Source of the DNA: Deuterostichococcus epilithicus
Taxonomy: Eukaryota; Chlorophyta; Trebouxiophyceae; Prasiolales; Stichococcaceae
Assembly (NCBI GenBank): GCA_033439295.1
Contig: JAVTLE010000014.1
Location: 3,658,001-3,722,000 of the forward strand
DNA: 64,000 bases
Direction: 5' to 3'
Under the pieces are notes generated by a model, which was not told the DNA's origin, searched no databases, and saw nothing but the letters and a program-made list of their open reading frames with translations. A program made the position numbers and the translations under genes. This document shows, one piece after another, positions 26,671-36,635 of the stretch. Numbering within the stretch: position 1 is the first letter of the stretch; each line of letters starts with the position of its first letter.

Positions 26671-29600
26671 CTAATTGCGAGGCTGTCCCCCGGCGACGAC
26701 CTTGACGCGCGGCCGCAACTTGGCCGGCCCGGCGCCCTTCTCCAATTTCGCGCCGTGGCCGCCGTTGCCAGCCGTCTTGTCGGAGGCGCCCTTGCTGTAC
26801 TTTAGCGGCTTGATGAGCAGCCCCGCCTCCTTGGTAACCGCCGGCCGTGTCAGATTCCTGCAGTACAGTTGACGGAGTGCATTGGCATGGGTCCAGCCAG
26901 TTCCAGATGCCGAATTCCTAGCCGCTGTTAGGTGGGTATGTGCGGCGTGAGCCCCAACGCTGACTAACTGCAACATGGTTGCAGCTGTACTATGTGCTGG
27001 CAAGGGGTATTGAAGTACCCAAACACCCTGGCGGCGAGCATAAAAGAACGAATCCTCATCGGAGCACACTGACAGATTCTACGACAGTCCCCCGCCCGCC
27101 CTGAGAGCGGAGTGGGGCCGATTTGGGAAGCAGCCACGATGGGCTGCAGCCGGGCAGGCGGCCGCACCGGAAGGACGCATTGGTATTGAAGTCCTGGCCC
27201 AGCGGCTGTCGCATGGAGCGCTCGTAGGTGTCGCGACCGTCAAAGGGGAAGGGCACGCCCGTCGCCGCATACTTCTGCGCCCGCCTGTCCCACTTTTCGG
27301 ATATGACGATGTGCGCCTGCCCTGCGTCCTTGCGCCGTGCCAGCGCCGCCTCCTTCTGCCTGCAAGGAGGATTTGAGCACATCACGGTACACGAGAGCAG
27401 ACCACAGTGCATCAGAGCAAGTCACGACTACCACAGTGACGTGCCAACGAGGAGAAACGGGCAGATCATCGCAGCAAGTCGCCGTCAGCGTACGTCCGCC
27501 ATGGCTGAGACGGATCGGACGATTTGTCGCAGGTGTTGATCGGACTGCGCGCACAGCAGAGCAGGACCAGAGTGCGTGCTATGACTGAAAAAGTTCCAGG
27601 AGCAGAGCAGCGTGGCGTCCACGCTTGCGCTGCTGGACCCGGCTTTTCATAGACACGGCAGCGTGCAACTCAGCCGGTCGCGCCAGTGGCGGCCAGCAAA
27701 GGAGCCTCTTCCACAGAGGGGGACAGCCGAAAGGAACAGCCGCTCCGCCTGCAGCAGGCATGCGCACAGCCACATGCGCTCGAGGGCCGTCGGCAGGCGC
27801 TCGCTGCTGCGACTGCTTGGCAGCGGCGGCGGCGTTACAGCGGCCATGTGACCACAGGCATGAAAGCATCCCATGGCCGTCAAACGGGCAGAGACAAAGA
27901 GCTCACTGCTGAGCCTTCTTTGCAGCGGCGTCGGCGTCGCGCTGCATGCGCTTTGCGGAAGCCCAGGACCCCCAGCCGGGAAGCAGTCCCGCAGCCTCCG
28001 CCGGCGGTGCCTCCGCGTCAGCTTCCTCCGCCTTTTGCGCTGCAAAGTCCGCCTCGACATCGTCGCCAGCAAAGGCCATGGCAATCAGCTCCCGCTGCGA
28101 CAGCTCGCCGCCTGCCAAAGCAGCATGGCAGGAGGACGTCAGTCGGGCTCAGGGGTGTTCATCACTGAGCAGTTAGGCATGATGACTCTCATGCTCACGG
28201 TCTCATGCGGTGATTGTTTCATAGCAGGTTTGCAGCCATATAAGGACACACGCACACCTGCCACCGCTCGCATGGCGTCTGGCGCTGCAGCATCACCACC
28301 ACTGCCCTCATCTTCTGAACTGGCTGGCAAGGTGCGCTGGCCTTTGCCCCTTGCGCCGGCTGCTGCCTGCTGGCTGCCGCTGTGGCGCCCGCAATCGCCG
28401 CCGTCCGAGTGGTCAGCTGAAGCGTCGGCACCGATGGCAGCGTCCGGCGCCGCTGCCGCCATGCTGCCTGTGGTGACCCGGCTGGCCGGCCCAATGCTGA
28501 CGCCGCCCTGCTCGCCGCCGCCGCTGTCCGTCCGCCGCCGGGGTGCCGCCGCACCATCGGCGCCGCTGTCGCCAAACAGGCGCATGTTGCGGGCGCCGTG
28601 GCTGAGCGGCGCCGCGCTGCTGGTCGCCTGCCTTGTACGCCTCCGCTCCGGCTCCGCGGGCCCTGCCCCAGCCTCGGCATCTGCCGCCGCCGCCGCTGTG
28701 CCGGAGCCGCCGCCGTCCCCAGGCTGCCGGCTGGGCGCCGCGCTGCTGTCGGGCCGGCTGGAAGGGTCCTCCGGTGCCGGTCGGCCGGCGCTGGACTGCG
28801 CCGCGGTGGCCGCGTCCTGCCGCCGCCGCTGGGCCAGCCGCCCAGCCTTTGCCTCTGCGTCCTCGTGCTCGCCCGCCTCGCTGTCGTCATCGCTGCGTCA
28901 GGATGGAGGGCCGTCTGATCGCATGTGTCCTGGACAGTGCACCCTTTGGACTGGCCACCGATGGCTGCAGGTCGGAGGTGCGGTGCAGGCGCCAAGGCGC
29001 TGCGAAGGGTTTTGAGCAGAGCCATGCTGAGGAGCGCAGCTTCTGAGGCTGCTTGCAGCCAGCAAGGGGTCGGCAGCAAGTAGGAAGTGCATCTGCGCTC
29101 AGTCTGGTAGCATCAGTGAGTTCACCAGGCCGACAGGCCTTCAAACAAGAGGTGTCAGAATTGAGCTGTTCATCAGCGCGCACATGCAGTTCACATCTCG
29201 CAGGATGCTAGCATGCTCTCTAAGCTGCAAAGGTTGTGCGGATGCTCATGCGGGAAGGGGCGTCTGCGCTCAGTCTGTTAGCATCGATGAGTTCACTAGG
29301 CCGGCAGGCCTTCAAACAAGAGGTGTCAGAATTGAGCTGTTCATCAGCGCGCAGAGCAGCTGTGCATACAGTCACGTGCATGGGGCTGTGCACACAGTCA
29401 CCCGAGTCAATCGAGCAACAGCTAGATCAGCGTGCAGACATCTGGCAGCAGGAAGGTTCAAGACGAGCTATTGTGCATTTTGAGCTCCTGATGTCGGAAA
29501 TGTGCTTGGAAGTGCGAGGGGCCATCTGCGCTCAGTCTGTCAGCATCAATGAGTTCACCAGGCCGGCAGGCCTTCAAACAAGAGGTGTCAGAATTCGAGC

Positions 29601-32600
29601 TGTTCATCAGCGCGCCAGCGTTGGACCCAGTCACACAGGAATCGGGGACATCGTGTAAAGCTGTAGAGATGGACCGATGCCGCAGGCGGCGGCCATCTCG
29701 TGCGCACCTGGTGTCGGGCGCAGCAGCCGCGCCACTCTGGCCGAAGCCTTGCCCAGCTCCAAATGCGAAGCGGCCGGACGCCGCCTGCGGCTCGCCATCC
29801 TGCTGCAGCTCATCTTCTGGCACGCCCGTGACCTGTGCAAGGCAGAGAAAGGACCAGATCTGGCATTGCGACCACCCAAGTGCAACGCCAAGTGCGACAA
29901 TGCTCAGTCGTATTCTCGCAAGCGGACCGTGTGTTAGTCAATATCCACATGCCCAACCGGAGCCACAGATGGCTTGCGACAGGCATACGAATCGCGACAG
30001 CGCACCTCGGACTCGATGGAGCGCAGCAGGGCGGCGGCGCCGGCGGCGGCTACCGCCTTCTGCTGCTCGGCCGCGCGCTTCATGAAGGGCAGCCCGAAGA
30101 GGCCCCTGCCGCCCGCATCCTCCTCCGCGTCTGCGCGACGCGGGGAGAGTAATCCATGATGACTGTGGCGGCAGCCAGGCACTTTTGTGCAGATGGAATG
30201 GCAGATGAAATGGCAGTGGCGGTGCTTGCGTTCGATGCCAAACAAGGAGAGGGGACTGTTTGCGCTGCACCTTGCAGCACGTCCAGGGCCGCGGCGCGAG
30301 CCTTGCCGTATGCCGGCCTGCCGGCCCTGCGCGCCGGCGCCCCCTCGTCGTCGCCGCCGGGCCCGGCGCCGCCGTCGCGCTCCATCTCGTCGTCGTCGGA
30401 TGCCGAGGTGCTGCCGTCGCTGTCGCTGCCCGAGCCGCTGCCGTGAGCCTGCTCCACCTGCGCGGGGTGGCATCAAGGAGGCGCTCGCCATTGCTGTCTT
30501 ATCGGGACCGCTGCTGAGCTCGTGCAGCATCAGAGTCCGCAACGCCCTCAACTGTGAGGTGGAGGAACTGGTGGTTCGCGTCACACAGACATGTCTCACA
30601 CCTGAAAGCTTTCAATGGACCTGCTCAAGCGTGCGTGTCCCTCCCCCCCTCCTCTGCAGGTGCAGGTGCAGGTAGCAGACACATGACGGCGGGCACACAC
30701 CTTCTGGCGCAGCTGCATGCCGAGGCGCAGCTGCTCCTCCATGGCCTCCTTGGTGGTGGCGTCCATGACGTTGATGCCGCGCCGCAGCGCCCGCCGCGCC
30801 CACTTGCTCGTGTTCTTGTGCTTCAGCGTCAGCCGCTCCTGCGGTGGGAAGGGGCCACAGCGAGGGCGTCGTCCAGATGTCCTGGGTGTGATCTCAGGTG
30901 CAGAGAGTGAGCGCGGCAACCTGCCACCGCAGTCTGCAGGCGGCTCAGCGACTGGACGAGGCACAGCTGCCGCCTGCACCTCCCCAGCCCACGGCGGCGG
31001 CCAATGCTCATACAGTACACAGAGCCTCTTCTGTGGCGCCCACATGCCGACAGGCCGACCGGGGCGGCATCGAGATGTCACCTTGGCGCGCTCGAATTCG
31101 GCCTCCTCGGCGGCCTCCCGCAGCGCCTCCCCGGTGCCGTCCTCGTCCTTGGACGCCTTGCGTCGGGCGGCCTTGTTGGTGCGCCGCCGGTACTCCTTGC
31201 TCTTGATCGCCTTCATGCGGGCCGCCTTGCGCTCGTGGTAGAACAGCAGCGCCCGCATCTTGGCCAGCCGCTCCCGCCGCGCCTTGCTCTCCTCCGCGCT
31301 CAGCGCCTGCGCAGACAGGGCTTTCCGTCAACCCGCTTTCTGAAACCAGCGCGCGACAGGCTGAGCAGGATGATGCGCCGGCAGTCGGAGCTGTGGTCCA
31401 CGCCAGGCAGGCGCTAGCCTGGGCTGCATTTGTTGCTCGTACAGCCAGCCCCCTCAGCGCCAGCGCCGGCAGCACGCCCCGGTCGCGAGGTGCCATGCAG
31501 CATTCGCCAGCCTCAGACCCGTGGCATGCTCTTCAGCAGGCAGGGGCCGACTGGCTCGCAGGAGGGTCTGGGGCACCGCGTCCGCGGGGAAATGATGAAA
31601 CAATGATGCCAGAACCTGAACACACTATCAGGACTGACTCGCCTTGAGGGCGAGGGCATCCTCCGCCTCCTCCACGGCCTTGCCGCTGGCCACGCCCGCC
31701 GCCTGCAGCATGGCCGCCACCTCTGCCTCCATGTCTGTCTCCGGCGCGAACTGCGCTGTCAGCGCCGCCGTGGTGGCCGCCCGCCCAGGGCCGCCGCGCG
31801 GCGCGGAAAATGCCAGCGTCGGCGCCTCCCGGTTCGCCTGCCGAATGAACGGGCGCGGTCAGCGCAGGCGGACACCAGAGCATGGTGTCTGCTCGTCCAG
31901 CTGGGCGCAGCCTCTAAGATGAGTCATTGATGCAGCGCTGCACAATCCGGCGCAGCCGCCGGGAGCACACTGGCGCATCAGGCAGAACGACATGGCACGA
32001 CCTTCAGATGTTCGGCCGCTTAGATGTTGCACAACGACAAGCCTCGCATGCGTACACACCTTGACCATGGGCTGCCACTTGGCGACATCCTGAGAGGTGA
32101 CCTCGTAGGCTGCCTTGCGCTCCTGCCGCGCCTGCACATTGCCCGGCAGCGGCGCAGGCACCGCGCCGCCGCGCCGCTCCAGGCGCTCCAGGGTTTTGCG
32201 CGTCGCGCCGAGCTTCTTGCGGCTCTCGCCCAGCCCCTTGATCAGGTCCGACAGCTTCAGCTCCCCCTGCCCCTGGCCGCCTGCCGAGCAGAAAAATGAT
32301 CAATTTGCGGGCCACCACGTTCACATGCTGGACCGTGCCGTTAAGCAGCGAGCCTAGGCTGCCAAAAATTTGGAGGATCGCAGCCCTGGGGCACGCGGAG
32401 CGTCAGTGAAGCGATCATGCAGCTTAGTGCAGGCGAGGCATGCCGACATTGTCTCTGTCTCGAGCAACAGATCGACTCCAGCGCATACAGAGGCCTAGCA
32501 CCTGCGGTGGCGGACACAGGGTTCAAGTTGTACTCGGACTCGGGATAGGCCTCCGAGACGACGACGTCGCGGCGCTTGCGCTTGCGGTCCGCCTCTTTGT

Positions 32601-33488
32601 CGCCGCCGCCGCGGATGTCCTCGAGCATCGCCCGGTGCCGCTCGTCATCATCGCTGCCCTCGCCATTGCCATCGCCCTCACCCGCCCGCGCGGCGCCTTC
32701 GTCCTCTGACAGGTCCTGCATCATTGCCAGGGCAAGCAGACTGGTATCGTGTCGCAGCAGAAGTGCACGCCGTTCGACGCTGCAGCGAGGGCAGTCTTGA
32801 GAAGTTCTCTGCCTCTGTGTTGCGATCTTGCAGGCAGCACAGCTGGCCTTCTCTGGCAAAACTGACACATGCATTGTCCATGTCTCGAGTCTGATGCAAG
32901 GCCCCTGCGGGAGGGTGTTGCATACGTCGATGCTGTGTCAGGCAGCTCACGTCTGTGTTGTAGCCCTCGTCGTCGTCAGAGGCGCCAGAGTCCAGCAGGT
33001 CTGCTTCCTCCTCCGCCTCCTCATCGCTGCCGCCCGAATCGCCAAACATGCCGGCAAACTGAATCTTGTCCTCCGCCGTGAACGCCATGTCCTCGTCGAT
33101 CTCCTCATCGTCCTCCACATCGGACGGCAGCTCGAATTCCAGGCCGTCCGCGATCTGCGAATCGTGCACAGGCACCCAAAGCTCACCTGGCGAGGTGGCG
33201 GCGGCTGCCAGTGGGCGAGCACCTGCACATTCATGCACGGTGCACGCGAGCAAGCTGCGAGCAAAGTCTTGCAGCGATGCAAGCCTCGAGGATCCCTGCA
33301 CGACTGAGCATCCACTGGCACGCTGCCATGCGCCGGCGCGGCACGCATGCATGGCTCACATCGTAGCGTTTGTTGACGTTCTTCGGTCGCTCCTCAACAG
33401 GCAGCTCCGCTTCGGCTTCGTAGATGTCCAGCGGCTGCGCAGTCTCTTTGGTCTGTTTGCGGCGCTTGCCGCCACCTGGTCGACCCAT
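26671..33488 (-). CDS. UTP14: U3 snoRNP-associated protein 14 (UTP14), SSU processome
   Basis: Fourteen phased exons: 33488-33360, 33154-32951, 32715-32502, 32280-32060, 31837-31643, 31306-31082, 30838-30701, 30457-30271, 30130-30006, 29832-29708, 28892-28258, 28111-27907, 27359-27168 and 26857-26671. They encode 993 residues. UTP14 acts in nucleolar 18S pre-rRNA processing and activates the DHR1/DHX37 helicase. Signatures: an acidic N-terminal region (ELPSDVEDDEEIDEDMAF), the basic central block (YHERKAARMKAIKSKEYRR, then LTLKHKNTSKWARRALRRG), LPGWGSWA (~840), HIVISEKWDRRAQKY and the basic C-terminus (LLIKPLKYSKG). The algal protein is longer than human UTP14A through an Ala/Asp/Ser-rich stretch in the 635-base exon. 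The intron after 31643 starts with GC (AAG|GCGAGT). Confidence 0.95.
29091..29614. repeat. Three copies of a ~90-base repeat inside a UTP14 intron
   Basis: Copies at 29091-29180, 29262-29351 and 29524-29614 share TCTGCGCTCAGTCTG, then GAGTTCAC, AGGCCTTCAAACAAGAGGTG and CTGTTCATCAGCGCG with few differences. All three point the same way and lie in the 815-base intron between exons 29832-29708 and 28892-28258. Confidence 0.9.
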
Positions 33489-34045
33489 CTCGGAACGACC
33501 TTCAGAGACGCCTGGAGCCACGCTACAACATCAGGCCGCCTCGTCTGGCGGCGTCAGAGGGAACGGTTTGGCGAAGTGCAAAGCCTGAAATAAGCTCTTG
33601 TGCTCGGCTGCGGCTGCTCATCGGCTCAGTTGCCGAAGGCAGACATCGGACGCTAGCCAGCCCGATTCCCTCGCAGCTTTGACGAGTCCGAGAAGCCGGA
33701 GCACCAGCTTGGCGCACCGCTTCAGCTCCTTCCAAAGTGTCCAGCCAGTCTGATTGGGTGCCAAGATCTCAAGATAATTCTGCCTTTCGTCGGCTTGTCA
33801 GACAAGCCCTTACCTCCGGAGCCTGCCAGACGGAGGACGATTCGGCTGCATCCTGGGTTTGGATGCGCTCGAGTGTTCAAACTGCGGAAAGCGGACACTT
33901 AAAGGCTCTTTACGTGTGTTATATCAACTGAAATGCAGGTCGGTGCCAACCCGGATGCTCTGAATGTCATTTACGACTCACAGACTGTCTTGATGTCCGC
34001 ACGACATCGTGTGCAAAGTCGACTTAAACACTCAATCATGGGCCG
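33489..34045. promoter_or_regulatory. Divergent region, UTP14 / ubiquitin-like fusion
   Basis: 557 bases between two head-to-head start codons, expected to hold both promoters and 5' UTRs. Nothing more specific is recognised. Confidence 0.45.
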
Positions 34046-35183
34046 ATGCAGATTTTCCTCAGGAGCTTGGACGGCCACACCAGGGTGCTGCACATGCAGC
34101 CGACCGACACGGTCGACACCCTCAAGCACATGGTGCAGCAGTTGGAAGGTGCACCACTAGGTCGCAGCGCAGCATGCCGCCGTCGCTCATAGAGTTGTTG
34201 TGACGATCACAATATGGCAGCTGCACAAGCTGACCCGAAATACTGGAGTGGTTGCAGGGGTGCCGTGCGGCGAGCAGCGCCTGATGTGCGGCGCGCAGCA
34301 GCTGGCCTCAGGCGCACGGCTGGCTTCATACGGTGTGCACGACGAGTCAAACGTTGCGCTGCTGCTGCGGCTGCGGGGCGGCAACACCGCGAAGCTCGTC
34401 CAGCTGACGGTGCAGCCGCGGGTGCAGAAAGAGAAGTGGAGCCTGTACTGGAAGGAGACCATGTCTACTAAGACAATCGAGCTGGACCCTGTGCCACTGC
34501 AGCTGACCATCAGCACCACCATTGCCGAGGTAATCAGGGGCAGCGCTTTCCACCTCATCAATGGCAGCGCATGTGCGTCCTATGTACGTGTCGGCATGCC
34601 AGGCTGCAGGTCAAGATTAGTTCCTGAGTGGCCGCGGCATGATGCGCCAGGCTTCGAGTGGGAGCTTTCTGTCCCCGCGGCAGGTGCAGCAGCTGGTGGC
34701 CAAGCGCTGCGGCTGGGATCCAGTGGAGGGGCTGCAGAGGCTGGAGGGCTTCACGGAGGCATGGGAGCGGGTGCTCTTCCGCGGCCACGAGCTGAAGGCC
34801 GACCAGACTCTGGAAGCGGCAGGGCTGCCCGACCAGGCCACCGTCACCGCGATCCGCAAAGTGCTGGTGCCTGAGGGCTGGAAGGTGATTCCTTCGATGC
34901 TGATTCCTTCCGTGCTAATTCCTCACAAGGGCCACGTGCACGAAAGGTAGGACTGCGCCCCATCTTGCACTGGTGGGGCACCAGCGTTTGCAATCTGCAT
35001 CGCAGAGGCGCAGACGCGTGTGACTGCTGCAAAACCGGATCATCATGAGTTTTGGGTCACCTGCGGCTGGCTGTGCATGCAGAGGCAAACCTCCTGTCTC
35101 TGACCCAAACTGGTTATGAGCAGGTGATCAAGGAGGGGGATGAGGAGTCGATCTCCTCCACGGATTCCGAGGACGATTTCTGA
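34046..35183 (+). CDS. Ubiquitin-like domain (76 residues, ends LRLRGG) fused to a second beta-grasp-like domain
   Basis: Four phased exons (34046-34148, 34258-34529, 34684-34884, 35124-35183) encode 211 residues. The first 76 start MQIFLRSLDGHTRVLHMQP and end NVALLLRLRGG; they align to ubiquitin without a gap, 33 of 76 identical by my count. Of the seven ubiquitin lysines only K27 is kept (K6 R, K11 H, K29 M, K33 L, K48 Q, K63 D), and the I44 patch is L43-M44 with A68 replacing His68. After Gly76 comes a 135-residue extension. Its second half looks like another ubiquitin fold (LFRGHELKADQTLEAAGL, then DQATVTAIRKVL), and it closes with the acidic tail EGDEESISSTDSEDDF. The layout recalls ubiquitin fusion precursors cleaved after Gly-Gly, but cleavage is an inference. 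I know no named orthologue. Confidence 0.88.
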
Positions 35184-35328: not shown

Positions 35329-36635
35329 TCAGGACAGACTCTTTATGAAATTGACCATCACTTCTGTAGCCTCTCCTTCGTGGCCATTGAGGGCATGGTC
35401 TGCGCCCTCAATGACATGCGCTTGCGACAGCGGATGTGTCAGCACTGCCGCAAACATGTCGCGCATCTCATGGGGACTGATGCTTTGTGGCACGTACTCG
35501 TCGCTGCCGCCAAACAACGACAGCGTTGGCACCTCTGCCAGGCGCCCCAGCTTTGCCTGCGCAGTTCATTAGGAAAGTGACTGGCATGGGCCATTTGCTG
35601 GCGTTGTACCAGGCCCTTTCGAAGACGCTGTGTTGGCAAGCAGCATCGATTCATTGGATATTATTATAGTAGTTGTGAACATCAAACAGGGCATCTTACA
35701 TAGCGCTCCTCTTGACTGAAGCCAGCGCTGAAATAATCGTCGTCACCGCCTGGTGCTGCAATTGCGAGAAAGCGTCGAGCTGTCACAGGTGTGCCATCGT
35801 CATCCCTGCGCATGAAACCGGGTTCAGTCTATATGTTGAGTGTGGCTTGTGTGGATCCTCTTCTTCTGCCCAGAGTGGACGCCTCATCATTGCTGCCTTG
35901 GCAGTCGAATGGTTTTCGCAGAATGAGCCCACCTGAATGCGATGTTCTCTGCATGCCCATTCTCGACCAGGCGCTGGCACAGCTGCACACGGCCAGCAGT
36001 CTCCGGCTCGGTCGCCAGCCAGTCCTGGTCGCTGACCTGTGGGCGCCGCAGGAGCGCTGTCTTGGCATCAAAATCGGACCGACGCTGGGACCTTCGCATC
36101 CAGCGTTCAAATGACCGCCACAGCACTGGCCCGCAAGCTCACTGGTGCCTGCAGGATGACGCCGTCTGGAGGGTCGGACTGCCTGTTTGTATACCGCGCC
36201 GCATCTTGGCACCCTGTGCTGTGCCCGGCCAGGACCAGAGCCTGCGCGGCGGCACAACAAACACAATCAGCTTGGATTCCTGCAATGCAACATGTCGATG
36301 CAGCATAAGTATGAGCAAAAGCTTTAACGAGCGCACCTCTGAATCATAGGCAGATCTGAGGTGCTGGGCCAGCTGGCTGAGCTCGTCGGCGTCTTGGTCC
36401 AGGCTGCCGACGCCCCAGCCTATGAGTGACGTCGACAGCATCGGCTGCACCAGTGACCTGCAGGTATAGCTTACATGGTTTTGACGAGCACGTGTCGATA
36501 GATTCTGCGACACTCCAAAGATGTCCACGCACCAGCCGATGGCGTCAAGCTTGGACGCCAACACCATGGCATATTTGGCGAACAGCAGCGCATCGCCGAG
36601 GCCGCCGACCAGCACCACGTGCCGCCGGTGACTCC
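35329..36635 (-). CDS. DUF1749 / SidJ-like alpha/beta hydrolase
   Basis: Six exons in phase: 36635-36533, 36457-36337, 36241-36143, 36036-35933, 35805-35700 and 35556-35329, giving about 253 residues plus an unplaced start exon that must supply one base. The family (DUF1749, including fungal fusarinine C esterase SidJ) has an alpha/beta-hydrolase fold. Signatures: VVLVGGLGDALLFAKY near the start, then SLVQPMLSTSLIGWG with SLDQDADEL, the nucleophile elbow LAGHSTGCQD, GVILQAPVSDQ, and the C-terminal SLFGGSDEYVPQS (acidic residue) with EGADHALNG (catalytic His). The Ser-Asp-His triad therefore looks complete. In fungi SidJ hydrolyses siderophore esters; the substrate in algae is unknown. Confidence 0.88.

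Follow-up and report, generated by a model that had tools for sequence, protein, structure and literature searches.

The window analysed here, a stretch of 64 kb, corresponds to positions 3658001-3722000 of contig C12, and the genome searched alongside it, presumably of a green alga, comprises 46.8 Mb. Its plus strand carries an open reading frame of 211 residues in one frame with no stop (34046-34148, 34258-34529, 34684-34884 and 35124-35183), which divides into a ubiquitin-like head (residues 1-76) and a second half (residues 77-211). Both neighbouring genes lie on the minus strand. Divergent from the candidate gene is UTP14, a ribosome-biogenesis factor (27167-33488), recognised by PF04615 at C12:3685167-3690275 (window 27167-32275); its N-terminal part (32276-33488) was assigned by eye, and two N-terminal fragments alone matched no family. 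Convergent with the candidate gene is a DUF1749 alpha/beta-hydrolase gene (at least 35329-36343) with PF08538 in the ORF fragments 35329-35565 and 36107-36343. About 0.44 kb (33489-33932) separate the UTP14 start from the probable start of the candidate gene, and this interval possibly represents a bidirectional promoter. An upstream region shared by the two genes is suggestive only.

The original prediction had four exons starting from the ATG at 34046. The protein sequence stays unchanged, but translation probably starts at 33933 and the gene would consist of five exons. In the Ub-L40 gene (contig C18) and a polyubiquitin gene (C11), an ATGCAG followed by gt is located ~155 bases upstream and the next exon begins at Ile3 after an AG. 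The candidate gene has the same layout, namely a probable first coding exon ATGCAG (Met1-Gln2) at 33933-33938, the donor gtcggt from 33939 and gatgcag ahead of ATTTTC at 34052, so that the probable first intron, judged from this layout, spans 33939-34051. The motif ATGCAGGT occurs three times on the plus strand of the window, including the copy of the candidate gene, and not at all on the other strand. The ATG at 34046 shows C at both -3 and +4, which we take to be a poor start context, and an out-of-frame ATG lies 8 bases ahead of it. Between 33933 and 34046 there are four ATGs, which would fall within the proposed intron. Against the upstream exon speaks that the heads of two further genes of this genome, SDE2-type and eS31 (see below), as well as the first unit of a polyubiquitin gene on C15 begin without an intron at codon 2.

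The head exon covers 34052-34148, beginning with residue 3 and ending after one base of codon 35 (phase 1 donor), as judged by frame and ubiquitin similarity; it would cover 34046-34148 if codons 1-2 were unsplit. Residues 35-125 are encoded at 34258-34529, comprising the rest of the head, its LRLRGG end, the Gly76|Asn77 junction and the start of the second half. Codons 69-76 (34359-34382; pattern match at C12:3692359-3692381) read LLLRLRGG and form a C-terminus of ubiquitin type. As the junction at 34382/34383 lies within a single exon, the fusion is not a product of splice choice. The exon at 34684-34884 encodes residues 126-192 with most of the second ubiquitin-like domain, as indicated by PF00240 and hhalign. 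The last exon (35124-35183), joined by a frame-consistent GT-AG splice of 34885-35123, encodes VIKEGDEESISSTDSEDDF and a stop. An extension of 135 residues with an acidic tail had been claimed, and the 211-residue frame is indeed found; the acidic end, however, requires that the last intron is spliced in one particular way out of several, and read-through gives a protein of 213 residues with a different end. The start of the last intron (34885-34950) reads in frame as VIPSMLIPSVLIPHKGHVHER followed by a stop; a donor (gtagga) lies at 34947, and an alternative C-terminus from this region is possible. GC at third codon positions is slightly in favour of the acidic end (0.80 versus 0.60 for the read-through end, ~20 codons each). 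Judged by these sequence data, the gene appears genuine.

The head belongs to the ubiquitin family. PF00240 matches residues 3-74 with E=5.2e-18 and 65 bits, above the curated cut-off of 25.4 bits and far beyond chance. A gap-free alignment to human ubiquitin gives exactly the 33/76 identical residues counted originally, and the translated exons likewise bear out the LRLRGG end and K27 as the sole lysine. Compared to ubiquitin of the same genome, 34/76 residues are identical and 42/76 differ. With this identity and only one of the seven lysines (6, 11, 29, 33, 48 and 63 are absent), the head is not ubiquitin proper. In an exon-wise six-frame search of the genome with PF00240, the exons of the candidate gene are absent at E 0.001 (37 matches listed), marking it as a divergent family member. 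Searching the PDB by sequence, the best 60 of 336 matches are ubiquitins, ubiquitin fusions or ubiquitin-derived constructs. The head retains Arg72, Arg42 and Gln49 and carries the surface substitutions I44M, H68A, V70L and R54A; positions 44, 68 and 70 are presumably residues which many DUBs touch. AlphaFold on the protein alone reached a mean of 38. Together with six viral ubiquitins the head was modelled as ubiquitin with 63-86 in blocks of ten residues, and Foldseek aligned this head model to single ubiquitins with a TM of ~0.8. A second copy of the head was not found in the genome search.

The intron positions and phases point to a descent of the head from a ubiquitin unit. Codon 35 is interrupted in phase 1 by the second head intron, as in Ub-L40 and the first unit of the polyubiquitin gene on C15, and introns at codons 2 and 35 as in local ubiquitin genes are read as descent from such a unit, the one at codon 2 being deduced from the layout. 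By alignment, the SDE2-type and eS31 heads have the codon-35 intron as well. The ubiquitin units on C18, C11 and C15 seem to be split after codon 2 (not the first unit on C15) and in codon 35, and some of their donors may be GC. A copy of RUB1/NEDD8 was ruled out as source of the head by the different intron (after codon 40 in phase 2 of the RUB1 model made here), an identity of 28% to the partial RUB1 and the retained Arg72. The tail pattern has 18 matches in the genome (2 in the control), that is 13 ubiquitin units, the SDE2-type gene, the candidate gene and three others (C4, C12:4332174 and C13) with no ubiquitin-like sequence upstream. Four of the matches lie on C11 and eight on C15. In a tree of 13 rows the position of the head is without support and its branch is long (1.5), while the SDE2-type and eS31 heads are grouped at 91/91 with a long-branch warning.

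The second half likely holds a ubiquitin-like fold with a longer loop after the helix. PF00240 matches residues 143-183 (34735-34857) at E=4.3e-4 and 20.4 bits, which is under the cut-off. When set against six ubiquitin-like sequences in hhalign, the second half was aligned in 63 columns (residues 103-182) with a score of 36.5, the best shuffle reaching 23.5 and none of 300 shuffles the actual score. Omitting the head from the profile gave 39.7 versus 21.8 for the best of 300 shuffles. Hence the second beta-grasp-like segment of the original prediction gains statistical support from a below-cut-off family match and an alignment exceeding all 300 shuffles. The AlphaFold model with six viral ubiquitins is not confident here (blocks of ten only 30-58). 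With this weak full model the first 22 Foldseek matches are linear ubiquitin chains or di-ubiquitin-derived constructs at an rmsd of 13-19; given the low confidence of the second half we do not use them as proof. The second half is single copy, as a genome search at E up to 10 gives three matches, all to its own exons. It has no relatives among 74 stretches from prokaryote genomes, and neither has the full protein among three pattern stretches from viral contigs. Searching viral contigs with the ubiquitin-like alignment yielded 36 stretches and six relatives at 37-43% identity, all of them ordinary or nearly ordinary ubiquitins. No NCBIfam match exceeds its cut-off (best rad23, E 1.5e-4) and the best PHROGs match is no better than E 0.28. 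A second domain arising as recent duplicate of the head was rejected, the similarity being weak only (BLASTP E 0.014, 20% identity).

Two other genes encode drifted heads in this genome. The eS31 (RPS27a) gene on C11:2086969-2087502 (minus strand) contains the only PF01599 match of the genome and adjoins a degenerate ubiquitin head on the same strand. This head shares 34/74 residues with local ubiquitin, has K27 as sole lysine and a tail reading ARLLGG, so that it should not work as ubiquitin. An SDE2-type gene at C7:1956083-1956423 (PF22782, E 7.9e-16) has an unusually ubiquitin-like head with the end LLLRLRGG|KGG. K27 is kept in all three drifted heads compared; other lysines are lacking in the candidate and eS31 heads, and the SDE2-type head has one elsewhere. 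Lys27 of ubiquitin is completely buried according to an excerpt of PMC6934565, and its retention is thus evidence for the fold and not for a chain type. The K27-only pattern had been taken as a possible mark of a modifier unable to form K48 or K63 chains. This is not supported, since K27 is also the sole lysine of the eS31 head and one of just two in the SDE2-type head. For the same reason we rejected K27 as a chain signal. Judging from the sequences, the drifted heads of this genome lose surface lysines and retain the buried one.

We propose that the candidate gene encodes a ubiquitin-head fusion precursor, drifted from a ubiquitin unit and cut after Gly76, with the second part as its working product, and give this reading an even chance. 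The head of such a precursor should end in a complete RLRGG with any in-frame residue but Pro behind it, and LRLRGG|N within one exon is what is found. A ubiquitin coding unit would have become joined to a second, ubiquitin-like protein; the head would then have escaped the exchange which keeps true ubiquitins alike, and drifted with fold and LRLRGG retained. A cellular deubiquitinase would cut the precursor after Gly76 and release the 135-residue part, a ubiquitin-like domain with acidic tail starting with Asn, which may be short-lived by an N-degron route. The head would act in cis and build no chains; as in SDE2, it would aid production or folding or time the release. The model is fission yeast Sde2, whose head, as described in passages of PMC9508853, is cut at GG-K by Ubp5 and Ubp15 and is replaceable by ubiquitin, and whose freed part acts in splicing and is a short-lived N-end-rule substrate. 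Because the candidate shares this plan and a local SDE2-type gene is present, we infer the cut after Gly76. The sequence itself shows the reading frame, introns of ubiquitin type, an intact tail, a likely second domain and the parallel heads, whereas cleavage and release of the second part, its function and its control by an N-degron would follow by inference.

Several observations speak against the precursor. I44M, H68A and V70L alter the surface touched by many DUBs, the residue after GG is Asn instead of Lys in the SDE2 case or Gly in the local eS31, and I13R places a charge in the core. Moreover, the AlphaFold model of the second half is not confident, and relatives of this half are absent from the genome, the viral contigs and the prokaryote genomes searched. 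In favour of the N-degron step, the genome contains partial matches to NTAN1 (profile 205-244 of 270) and ATE1 (37-114 of 122) with 41.8 and 34.5 bits; a UBR-box search gave no match in the genome, and none in any control either, and thus weighs on neither side. A more far-reaching version, in which one cut yields two products in a fixed 1:1 ratio, namely a ubiquitin-like cap that is E1-competent and almost devoid of lysine and a short-lived ubiquitin-like regulator starting with Asn, is a long shot.

Among the alternatives, a relic would be a decaying ubiquitin unit stranded before another coding stretch and no longer under selection. The absence of an orthologue from the collections searched, the long branch of the head, the ambiguous last splice and the donors of the two head introns, which by eye seem weaker than those of true ubiquitin genes, would fit such a decay. 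The head was compared to neutral simulations in which a local ubiquitin unit drifted at random until its identity was equally low (2000 runs), with outcomes counted singly, not jointly. A stop-free head is seen in 614/2000 drifts, so the open head alone is weak proof of selection. Likewise K27 is kept in 735/2000 and alone often survives by chance. This does not apply to tail and core: LRLRGG is kept in 38/2000 and at least 13/14 core hydrophobics in 54/2000, the actual head having V, I, L, M or F at 13/14 core positions with I13R as the charged exception. All six tail columns match local ubiquitin despite 34/76 overall (hypergeometric P=0.006). Furthermore, 211 codons are open with a strong codon-position GC pattern (0.66/0.41/0.87 at positions 1/2/3 versus 0.56-0.60 in introns), and the introns are of ubiquitin type in correct phase. 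The relic reading is hence unlikely, with a slim chance in our estimate.

Alternatively, the protein might stay uncleaved as a tandem adaptor, in which the head docks on the proteasome or another ubiquitin receptor while a client is bound by the acidic tail or the second domain. Attached ubiquitin-like domains are common (Rad23, Dsk2, Ddi1), and the absent K29 and K48 would spare the protein from ubiquitin-fusion-degradation; lysines 6, 11, 29, 33, 48 and 63 are all lost. Since the second half is itself probably ubiquitin-like by PF00240 and hhalign, the protein resembles linear di-ubiquitin, and the Foldseek matches of the weak model agree with this, although their rmsd and the unconfident second half weaken the point. 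Uncleaved heads usually lack RLRGG, whereas here the whole tail is retained despite 42/76 differences from local ubiquitin; in addition H68 is lost. We regard the adaptor as somewhat improbable, but it and the fusion precursor remain the two leading readings. A distinct modifier appears improbable. In this case the ubiquitin E1 or a dedicated cascade would attach the freed head to targets via Gly76, and the head would form a cap almost without lysines which ordinary chains cannot extend. Arg72 is the residue by which the ubiquitin E1 distinguishes ubiquitin from NEDD8, and LRLRGG with Arg72, Arg42 and Gln49 makes the tail compatible with conjugation, no more. LRLRGG is however no less intact in the SDE2-type head, and in yeast its counterpart is required for processing. 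The surface changes H68A, I44M, V70L and R54A and the missing second copy of the head also speak against a modifier, and with K27 being structural the lysine pattern is no argument.

The proposed fusion precursor shares features with several known systems. As in SDE2, an N-terminal ubiquitin-like head ending in GG precedes another protein, but Asn instead of Lys follows GG and the second part is ubiquitin-like. The local SDE2-type head resembles that of the candidate in its LRLRGG end and codon-35 intron and differs by an unbroken MQLF (no codon-2 intron) and by being two residues shorter. PF22782 is absent among the matches of the candidate up to E 10 and the junction reads GG-N, so it does not class as SDE2. 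In Ub-eS31 the head is likewise degenerate, its only lysine is K27 and codon 35 is split by an intron, but the partner is a ribosomal protein and the tail reads ARLLGG. Divergent S27a heads are known from Caenorhabditis/nematodes and many protists, as stated in an excerpt of PMC10457151. Parts of PMC6332867 describe in-frame fusions of ubiquitin to novel partners, hypothetical proteins among them, in Bigelowiella and Guillardia, and no extra clear-cut ubiquitin fusion found in Chlamydomonas and Arabidopsis. The candidate differs from the Bigelowiella and Guillardia fusions in that a ubiquitin-like partner follows a head with just 34 of 76 residues in common with local ubiquitin. In FUBI-eS30 (FAU) a ubiquitin-like head is also cut from another protein, as sections of PMC10611586 and PMC8354635 describe; partner and sequence are different, and we set it apart by description. 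ISG15, FAT10 and linear di-ubiquitin resemble the candidate by two consecutive ubiquitin-like folds. Their reactive GG ends the second domain, whereas in the candidate GG ends the first. Among titles and abstract openings listed by open-access searches for such fusions or divergent heads, none describes a green-algal ubiquitin head joined to another ubiquitin-like domain.

If the cut occurs, the candidate would be a non-ribosomal, non-SDE2 addition to the few proteins activated by removal of a ubiquitin head, with a ubiquitin-like product. Taken together, one genome holds three drifted heads (candidate, eS31 and SDE2-type), each with K27 and a GG at its end, and in two the complete LRLRGG is retained. 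They represent a natural experiment on which ubiquitin residues serve fold and processing and which serve signalling.
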